From the NCBI GenBank assembly GCA_031257295.1, contig JAIROX010000005.1, forward strand, positions 1 to 64,000: DNA of 64,000 nucleotides, given 5' to 3'. This stretch comes from Candidatus Nomurabacteria bacterium (lineage in GTDB: Bacteria; Patescibacteriota; Saccharimonadia; Saccharimonadales; Saccharimonadaceae). The translations under genes and the position numbers were made by a program. Positions 18,071-56,141 of this stretch are shown here, one piece after another. Below the pieces are notes generated by a model. That model was not told where the DNA came from. It did not search any database and saw nothing but the letters and a program-made list of their open reading frames with translations. Each line of letters starts with the position of its first letter. Position 1 is the first letter of the stretch.

Positions 18071-18549
18071 TACTTATCCTCCTTTTTAGCGCTTCGCTTT
18101 TGAGACAAACCTGCGGTTTTTCTCAACGTGCCGGCCGCCGGCGAAGCCGTCGTGTCGGACTGCTCTTTTCCCTTAAGCTCCTGAGCAACTGGCGTTTTCT
18201 TAAGTTTTTCTTCACCAGATACCACAACTAAAATGTTGCTTGACTTTTTTTCAAACGGTAAAGCACGACCACGGCTAGCTGGTTTGTAGCGACGCATACG
18301 CGAGCCAGTCGTGACTGAAATCGTCTTGATCTGAATAGTCTTAACATCGATACTAGCGGTATCAAGCAGATTAGCTTTGGCGCTTTCAATCGCTTTTTTG
18401 ACAGCCAAAGCGGCGCGGCGCGGCGTATGATCTAAAATAACTAATGCGTCAGCCACCGAACGGCCTCGCACCAGGCTCGCTACCACCGAAACCTTACGTG
18501 GCGCCAGGTCAATGCCTTTGATATATGCGCGTTTTTCCACGGTAGCCAT
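18070..18549 (-). CDS. rplV: 50S ribosomal protein L22 with C-terminal extension
   Basis: 159 residues. The L22 core (RKVSVVASLVRGRSVADAL through ITVTTGSRMRRYKPASRGRA-like region) spans about 1-110. The remaining 45 residues are an unusual basic, Ser/Ala/Thr-rich tail. The tail is encoded by the structured element shared with the rpoB leader and ends in the KKEDK codons that serve as the rpsC ribosome site. L22 lines the exit tunnel. Confidence 0.96.
   Translation of the reverse strand: MATVEKRAYIKGIDLAPRKVSVVASLVRGRSVADALVILDHTPRRAALAVKKAIESAKANLLDTASIDVKTIQIKTISVTTGSRMRRYKPASRGRALPFEKKSSNILVVVSGEEKLKKTPVAQELKGKEQSDTTASPAAGTLRKTAGLSQKRSAKKEDK
18089..18172 (-). promoter_or_regulatory. Structured RNA element, copy 1 (upstream of rpsC)
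   Basis: On the minus strand an AAAAGAGCAGTC box is followed by hairpin CGGC-TTC-GCCG, then GGCACG, then a hairpin with arms TTGAGA(AAAACC) and (GGTTTG)TCTCAA, ending just before the rpsC ribosome site. About three quarters of positions match the rpoB-leader copy at 38779-38873. Two pairs covary: TGGC/GCCA there is CGGC/GCCG here, and ATGAGA/TCTCAT there is TTGAGA/TCTCAA here. This supports a conserved RNA fold, here inside the rplV coding end. Confidence 0.7.
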
Positions 18550-21374: not shown

Positions 21375-21465
21375 TTTAAATCTTGGTATCGTGCGGTTTC
21401 TCTGTTGCCAAAGACCTGCAAGCTTACCAAGTTTTAACTTCTAAAATTTTATAAGTTACTCGCAT

Positions 21466-21494: not shown

Positions 21495-21509
21495 CAGTTT
21501 CGTACCACT

Positions 21510-21968
21510 TCACAGCCCGTTCTCAAGAAACTCTTCGTCCGATATTACTTCTACACCATTGTCGGCCAGGCATCTCGAGGTCACACCGTCGCCAGGCACT
21601 TTTTTGCCAGTAAATGTTCCGTCGTAAACCATTCCAGCGCCACAGGATGGGCTGTGCGCTTTAAGCACTGCCTTCCCAATCTTATGCTTTTGACAAACTT
21701 TCAAGGCTATTTCCGCACCTCTCGCGAAAACATCCGTGTAGTCTTTCCCGTTCCTGTCAACAACTCTGATGCCGTCTTCACCCGTGATAGCTTCACAGGA
21801 TAATCTCGGAGTGGGCAGGCCCGCCCAAACCTCTGGGCATATCGGTACCACTTTATATTCACTCAGCGCATCTGTGAGACCGTTCTTCGCTGGTTCGCCA
21901 TCATACCGACAGGATACGCCCAAAAGGCAGGCGCTCACCGCGATAGTCTCTTTCTCAGCGTCGTTCAT
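21510..21968 (-). CDS. TudS-like DUF523 protein
   Basis: 152 residues of the DUF523/TudS family. Characterised TudS proteins are [4Fe-4S] thiouracil desulfurases that remove sulfur from 2-thiouracil. The three conserved cysteine regions are present: ACLLGVSCRYDG (Cys14, Cys20), PICPEVWAGLPTPR and KAHSPSCGAG. ATG 21968 is preferred over the upstream extension because the -10 box lies exactly 6 nt before it, which predicts a leaderless mRNA. It is inserted between rpsJ and rplC, which are adjacent in most bacteria. Confidence 0.85.
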   Translation of the reverse strand: MNDAEKETIAVSACLLGVSCRYDGEPAKNGLTDALSEYKVVPICPEVWAGLPTPRLSCEAITGEDGIRVVDRNGKDYTDVFARGAEIALKVCQKHKIGKAVLKAHSPSCGAGMVYDGTFTGKKVPGDGVTSRCLADNGVEVISDEEFLENGL

Positions 21969-21974
21969 ACAAAT

Positions 21975-21983
21975 ATTATACCA
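21975..21983 (-). promoter_or_regulatory. Leaderless promoter of the TudS-like gene
   Basis: TGGTATAAT, an extended -10 element, ends 6 nt before the ATG, so transcription should begin at the start codon itself. Confidence 0.75.
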
Positions 21984-22060
21984 TATTTCGTACACAACTC
22001 TACATTCTGCGTCAAAAACGAACAAGCACGACCACCCCGTGTGGCACGAATAGCACATAC

Positions 22061-22415
22061 GAAAATACCCGGGCTACAATAGCTCGGGTATTCAAATATA
22101 TGTACAACGGGCTGGTGCCCGTATTATCTTCGACAGCTGCAGTTGAGTCATAGTACAGAGGGCTTCGGGTCAGTAAAGCCATAAACTCTCATCAACAACA
22201 TTAAGCAGCTGCTCCTGGCCAAGGATTTTTGTTTATTCCCCATTCTTAATACCTACCTTGGCATGGATTGGTGCACTAACACCTTCCGCGTGTTCGTGCC
22301 GTCCTGCTCGGACTGTAGTCAACACCCAACGTCTAGTTAGGCTCCTACACGCACGCAACAATTGCGCGACAGACCTTGCGACACACGCAGAGATTCGATA
22401 AACTCCAGTTTATCT
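22061..22415 (-). ncRNA. Unassigned structured RNA, about 355 nt
   Basis: The interval has no credible ORF but has a strong promoter (22422-22450) and ends in a 13-bp hairpin (22063-22092, AATACCCG arm) followed by TTTT. Internal hairpins on the minus strand include GATAAAC-TGGA-GTTTATC, CGCAA-TTG-TTGCG, GTCC-GAGCA-GGAC and GCAC-G-AACAC/GTGTT-A-GTGC around a GCGGAAG loop, plus a GCCAAGG/CCTTGGC closing pair. RNase P RNA, tmRNA, SRP RNA and 6S RNA were considered; none of their conserved cores was found. Probably a new or highly divergent RNA. Confidence 0.6.
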
Positions 22416-22421
22416 GCCTTG

Positions 22422-22450
22422 ATTATACAACAACTCAAGTTAAATCACAA
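22422..22450 (-). promoter_or_regulatory. Promoter of the unassigned RNA
   Basis: TTGTGA (22450-22445) and TATAAT (22427-22422) with a 17-nt spacer. The -35 box lies just upstream of the end of the preceding membrane-protein gene. Confidence 0.8.
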
Positions 22451-22775
22451 TCCCACTTGGCAAAAAGTAGCTGATAATGCCCACCATCACAATCACGGCG
22501 TAAAAGGTCCGCCGATTATAAGGACGTTTTTCAATAAGATGGATCAATATCAGGCCAACCAATAGGCCAACTGGAACACCTGCCACTGGTACGCCATTAA
22601 ATAAAAACGGTAAATTCATCTTAACCCAAAACGACCCGAGCAGCACTACAACCACCAGTTTTAAAATAAACACACCATCAGCCTCGGGGTTCTTTTCAAA
22701 ACCCCGACGACTTAGCTGTGTTCGGTTCCGAGCGTAAGTGCGCGCTCGCGACTTTTTATCTAACTGCTGCCCCAC
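22440..22775 (-). CDS. Small three-helix membrane protein
   Basis: 111 residues, GTG start, 17 nt after rpsJ and so probably co-transcribed with it. A basic N-terminus (Lys/Arg rich, about 1-30) precedes three hydrophobic segments near residues 36-54, 62-84 and 91-111. No recognised family. It could be an assembly or insertase accessory protein, but that is only a guess from the neighbourhood. Confidence 0.6.
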   Translation of the reverse strand: MGQQLDKKSRARTYARNRTQLSRRGFEKNPEADGVFILKLVVVVLLGSFWVKMNLPFLFNGVPVAGVPVGLLVGLILIHLIEKRPYNRRTFYAVIVMVGIISYFLPSGIVI

Positions 22776-38778: not shown

Positions 38779-38873
38779 CGCTACGCTTATGAGACAAAAC
38801 CCAATGGTTTTTTCTCATCGTGCGGGGCACTGGCAAAGCCAGCTGCTCCGACTGCTCTTTTTCCTTACGATAA
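38779..38873 (-). promoter_or_regulatory. Structured RNA element, copy 2 (rpoB leader)
   Basis: Minus strand: AAAAGAGCAGTCGGA, hairpin CTGGC-TTT-GCCAG, GTGC-CCC-GCAC, then a hairpin with ATGAGA and AACC arms closed by GGTT and TCTCAT, ending 18 nt before the rpoB GTG. It is homologous to 18089-18172, with compensatory changes in two stems. Position immediately before the ribosome site suggests control of rpoB translation or leader processing. Confidence 0.75.
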
Positions 38874-55959: not shown

Positions 55960-55993
55960 AAATTCTCCTCTACGGTCGTTATATCCGTAACAG

Positions 55994-56121
55994 TCTTTTT
56001 CTAAATCATGTTGGTCTGCGCGTAAAGGCCAATGGAGCTAACCAAGAGACAGGGCCCCCGCGTAGCATGGGGATGTCTCTTGGATTAGATCGCTTGGTCT
56101 AGCCAGAGATTTAGAAAAAGA
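55994..56121 (-). ncRNA. Structured intergenic element, 128 nt
   Basis: A 14-bp outer stem (TCTTTTTCTAAATC with GATTTAGAAAAAGA) encloses a strong inner hairpin: CCAAGAGACA with TGTCTCTTGG (56042-56051 and 56074-56083) topped by CCCC/GGGG, plus flanking CTAA/TTAG pairs. No T-run follows on either strand, so it is not a simple terminator. It lies between radA and the PIN-TRAM gene and could be the leader RNA of the latter, an independent small RNA or a MITE-like repeat with terminal inverted repeats. Confidence 0.6.
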
Positions 56122-56141
56122 GCTGTAAGGATAGGTCCAAC

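Follow-up and report, generated by a model that had tools for sequence, protein, structure and literature searches.

A genome-specific noncoding stretch in the variable interval between rpsJ and rplC of a Saccharibacteria genome, perhaps acquired together with tudS

Results

Gene order and features of the locus

The window analyzed here, a 64,000-nucleotide stretch of DNA, comes from a Saccharibacteria genome (G000) that is 97% complete and comprises 6 contigs with a total of 747,608 bases. The gene order on its minus strand is tuf, rpsJ, a gene encoding a membrane protein of ~105 aa, the candidate, a tudS gene (DUF523), a leader, and rplC, and among named relatives, the best matches to the membrane gene come mostly from genomes of Candidatus Saccharibacteria. 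The candidate, which an earlier note had described as an orphan structured RNA, is genuinely noncoding; a promoter-like site marks its 5' end and a strong hairpin its 3' end. The features of the window referred to below are as follows.

22440-22757, minus strand: membrane-protein gene, ~105 aa, family unknown, between rpsJ and rplC (BLAST; 26/41 regions)
22422-22450, minus strand: promoter-like site TTGTGA-17-TATAAT (10/12 matches; 4% of shuffles)
22061-22418, minus strand: candidate noncoding RNA or intergenic spacer (no ORF of >56 aa; no Rfam match)
22397-22414, minus strand: 5' hairpin GATAAAC-TGGA-GTTTATC (minimum free energy [MFE] structure)
22286-22392, minus strand: predicted multibranched central domain, containing CAGTCCGAGCAGGACGGCACG (z −1.06 alone)
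22107-22122, minus strand: hairpin ACGGGC-ACCA-GCCCGT (MFE structure; terminator-like on the plus strand in a terminator scan)
22063-22093, minus strand: 3' hairpin GAATACCCGAGCTATTGTAGCCCGGGTATTTTC, candidate weak terminator (z −3.7; absent from the terminator-scan list)
21510-21968, minus strand: tudS-like gene, Pfam 2-thiour_desulf, PF04463 (E 2.8e-42)
21501-22439, no strand: segment missing in the same-genus genome G001 (approximate extent; alignment and by-eye limit)
18100-18172 and 38789-38864, minus strand: copies of the rpsC/rpoB element

Across the order, the DNA between rpsJ and rplC forms a slot of variable length and content. Forty syntenic regions were taken from relatives, giving 41 with this one, and both genes were within reach in 33 intervals. 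The interval measures 513 to 7,388 nt in 31 of these 33 (this window included) and about 150 nt in the other two. The membrane gene is recognizable between rpsJ and rplC by BLAST in 26 of the 41 Saccharibacteria regions, and neither Pfam nor NCBIfam assigns its product to a family. The remaining content of the interval differs by genome: some carry small genes there, in either orientation, others large genes (e.g., pyrG), and others nothing. The proposal in the earlier note that the RNA splits an adjacent rpsJ-rplC pair does not survive this comparison, since the membrane gene and tudS also lie between the two genes, which are far apart in nearly all of the regions.

The leader of rplC (window 21382-21431, minus strand) contains CTTGGTAAGC..GCAGGTC..GAAACCGCACGATACCAAG, and a similar stem-closed element (CTTGGTGAAT..AGGTC..GGAAACC..CACCAAG) precedes rplC in nearly all relatives examined. 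This element has no match in Rfam and is likely to be a conserved ribosomal-protein leader.

An extra segment that holds the candidate and tudS

The single other genome of the genus at hand, G001, encodes an rpsJ that is 96% identical to the one described here. In G001, rplC begins 180 nt after the membrane gene, and between them there are just the rplC promoter and leader. The extra segment, which is ~0.94 kb long and missing in G001, contains little besides the candidate and tudS. Its left limit (~22440) was taken from the pairwise alignment, and its right limit (~21500) was set by eye at the shared AAACTGTTGACC in the rplC promoter. As tudS is present in only 3 of 101 relatives, acquisition is likely, and the native codon signal of tudS is weaker than that of the ribosomal genes. 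Judged from these sequence comparisons, the segment with tudS was likely acquired in this lineage; loss in G001 rather than gain here is possible, because the comparison rests on one same-genus genome.

The same slot is occupied by noncoding, strongly folding DNA in two other genomes, G031 (L042:834-1055; z −6.0; finishing in a hairpin with a clear T-run) and G003 (L043:2891-3640; z −5.6). Like the candidate, these stretches follow the membrane gene, contain no ORF, and have a promoter-like start, and they fold strongly, as does the candidate when taken whole, but their sequences resemble neither the candidate nor one another. It is conceivable, if distinctly unlikely, that in a subgroup of Saccharibacteria the slot after the membrane gene is a hypervariable locus whose structured noncoding RNAs are driven by promoters, evolve fast, and are unrelated to one another, with lengths of 358 nt here, ~220 nt in G031, and ~750 nt in G003.

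Coding potential and known RNA families

The longest ORF of the candidate is at most 56 aa, and its four short ORFs belong to no Pfam family, which bears out the earlier statement that it contains no credible ORF. Piecewise hexamer scores reached +0.27 and +0.38 in two frames of two pieces of the candidate. These scores, together with the fact that the slot often holds genes, would fit a remnant of a decayed protein gene brought by the insert, but the two frames disagree, the other pieces score negative, and the short ORFs match nothing in Pfam, so that we regard this explanation as improbable. As for pyrG in particular, a 19-nt identity to the pyrG start in two genomes (ATGGGGAATAAACAAAAAT) equals the chance expectation over 394 genomes, and a decayed pyrG was rejected.

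A search of Rfam, proposed in the earlier note as a check, returned zero matches to the candidate at gathering thresholds and thus no confident hit to a known family. Two sub-threshold matches appeared when the search was extended to an E value of 5, both at chance level and near or in the region: Thr_leader (RF00506; 19.9 bits versus a gathering score of 55; E 0.3; opposite strand) and STnc350 (RF02063; 18.6 bits versus a gathering score of 60; E 0.86). RNase P RNA (RF00010) and tmRNA (RF00023) are similar in length to the candidate but have no match there, and the real genes are found elsewhere in the genome, at G000:C4:38552-38891 and G000:C4:41656-42041, respectively. The candidate is therefore neither a missing RNase P RNA nor a missing tmRNA. 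SRP RNA and 6S RNA are likewise ruled out, with neither family matching at the candidate in Rfam at E values of up to 5; the earlier note had likewise recognized no conserved core of any of the four families. Across the whole genome, the small bacterial SRP RNA model (RF00169) and the 6S RNA model (RF00013) have no match, a result that could stem from limitations of the models or the assembly.

The rpsC/rpoB element

The rpsC/rpoB element is a palindromic repeat of ~73 nt that forms two hairpins and is not in Rfam. In addition to the two copies in the window, the genome contains copies at C1:3922-3987, C3:28509-28582, and C4:8237-8309, and with the rpoB leader as query, many copies were recovered from relatives. 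In an alignment of 28 copies, 16 of 22 consensus pairs display two-sided compensatory changes, and the element is a genuine family of covarying repeats. With the covariance model derived from these copies (R1), the copies in the window score 90.6 bits (rpoB) and 79.8 bits (rpsC). R1 has >100 matches in 28 of 61 genomes, with up to 22 per genome, and in a phylum-wide sample of 145 genomes, matches occur within the order only. Copies lie inside ORFs of, for example, truB, tilS, recJ, and the rplV tail (gene names were read by eye from the translations), as well as upstream of genes, in leaders (rpoB and rplK), and beside tRNAs. A frame of at least 100 codons covers 25 of the 41 fetched copies, although some of these frames are probably due to chance. 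The element resembles palindromic elements of Rickettsia that are inserted into protein-coding genes, which offers a lead.

The candidate is not a copy of this element. It shares the letters CAGTC..GCACG, which the earlier note had read as a faint echo of the element's core, but its GTCC-GGAC hairpin pairs them otherwise. With filters off, the best R1 score over 22000-22500 is 2.0 bits (E 0.63), versus ~80 to 91 bits for true copies, and the CAGTC..GGCACG segment itself scores −0.8, such that the likeness is attributable to chance.

Search for relatives of the candidate

A BLAST search of 394 family genomes with the candidate as the query found no homolog; there were short chance matches, and most of those examined lie inside coding genes. 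Neither plasmids nor phages gave a match, and a plasmid or phage origin was rejected on this basis. In the syntenic slots of relatives, BLAST and nhmmer found no homologous RNA, and a single-sequence covariance model of the central 107 nt of the candidate (R2) recovered itself and one match at E 0.8 in 49 loci and itself alone in 41 whole genomes. The same RNA, which the earlier note had suggested might be sought by synteny, is thus not seen in the relatives covered by these three methods, and the designation "orphan" is appropriate for the families, genomes, plasmids, and phages searched. No homologs, and hence no compensatory base changes, were found by BLAST or with R2. A search of the literature on small RNAs or palindromic elements of Saccharibacteria found nothing relevant.

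Folding

The fold of the whole candidate (358 nt) has a z score of −3.4 and is more stable than those of all 100 shuffles. Tiles of the same length along the minus strand of the window have a mean z of −0.97 (standard deviation, 1.5), and 6% of them reach a z of −3.4 or lower. Much of the fold signal of the candidate sits in its terminal hairpins: removal of the 3' hairpins leaves a z of −2.3, and removal of the 5' hairpin as well leaves a core with a z of −1.98, which is near background, within the spread of the window's own tiles. Three internal pieces folded alone gave z values of −1.06, −0.66, and −1.18. The opposite strand folds about as unusually as the candidate itself (z −3.6), as would be expected from simple inverted repeats. 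Internal hairpins, which the earlier note had called several and stable, are predicted, but the core folds near background, and the description as a structured RNA, although consistent with the fold of the whole stretch, is weakly supported given the core and the lack of conservation.

Elsewhere in the window, the tile with the strongest fold of all is that of a stable long hairpin at 55983-56140 on the minus strand (158 nt; −62.9 kcal/mol; z −6.8), between radA-like and PIN/TRAM-like genes. This hairpin is possibly a 6S-like RNA or a leader.

Promoter-like site and 3' hairpin

The sigma-70-like site upstream of the candidate agrees with the consensus at 10 of 12 positions, and 4% of shuffles of the region contain such a site. 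Its −35 half, TTGTGA, lies within the final codons (GIVI-stop) of the membrane gene, and the identical −35 sequence is found in G001, where the stretch is missing; its presence is therefore explained by the conserved coding end. What had been called a strong promoter is a promoter-like site at the right distance upstream, but one whose −35 box overlaps conserved codons. Similarly, the terminator-type hairpin at the 3' end is strong (z −3.7), but its U-tract is poor (UUUUC, partly within the stem), and it is absent from the output of the terminator scan.

These features bear on whether the candidate could be a small RNA gene specific to this lineage, with a transcript that starts from the site at 22450-22422, folds into a multibranched structure, ends at 22063-22093, and acts in trans or with a protein. 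The promoter-like site, the 3' hairpin, the lack of an ORF, and the z score of the whole stretch are consistent with such a gene, as are the unrelated strongly folding stretches in the slot of G031 and G003. However, no search found a homolog, the core folds near background, the U-tract is poor, and the −35 box is coding sequence. We consider a small RNA gene a possible but rather unlikely explanation.

A long regulatory leader (attenuator) of tudS, in which the 3' hairpin would terminate transcription unless an upstream structure senses a signal, would account for the order promoter, RNA, hairpin, and gene on one strand, with the tudS start ~95 nt past the hairpin. However, tudS has its own extended −10 sequence (TGG-TATAAT) directly before the start codon, and no Rfam leader or riboswitch matches the minus strand of this region even at an E value of 5, which makes this explanation very unlikely.

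Discussion

On balance, we favor, with limited confidence, the explanation that the candidate is intergenic DNA that was acquired by a variable slot and is under weak constraint; it may be transcribed, with its hairpin providing partial insulation. A DNA piece of ~0.94 kb and of no special kind would recently have been inserted together with tudS/DUF523, the candidate being its noncoding half, and the insertion would have occurred in a slot, bounded by the membrane gene that follows rpsJ and by the promoter of rplC, whose content appears to differ among Saccharibacteria. We infer that transcription of the candidate is probable, whether it arises by read-through from the tuf-rpsJ-membrane-gene unit or initiates at the 22450-22422 site, and that it probably declines or ends at the 22063-22093 hairpin, which would give tudS and rplC partial insulation. 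Both of these genes appear, from their upstream sequences, to have promoters of their own. The stretch is absent from G001, has no homologs in the genomes searched, lacks coding potential, and contains hairpins. Against the interpretation as an acquired spacer stand the fold of the whole candidate, which beats 100 of 100 shuffles, and the correct upstream spacing of the 10/12 promoter-like site.

As it stands, the candidate adds one more genome-specific piece of DNA to a variable slot in the ribosomal operon and is of little consequence. The check proved useful otherwise, as it showed the rpsC/rpoB element to be a covarying repeat family. If a stable RNA is made from the candidate, it would be an example of new RNA genes arising beside ribosomal genes in very small genomes.
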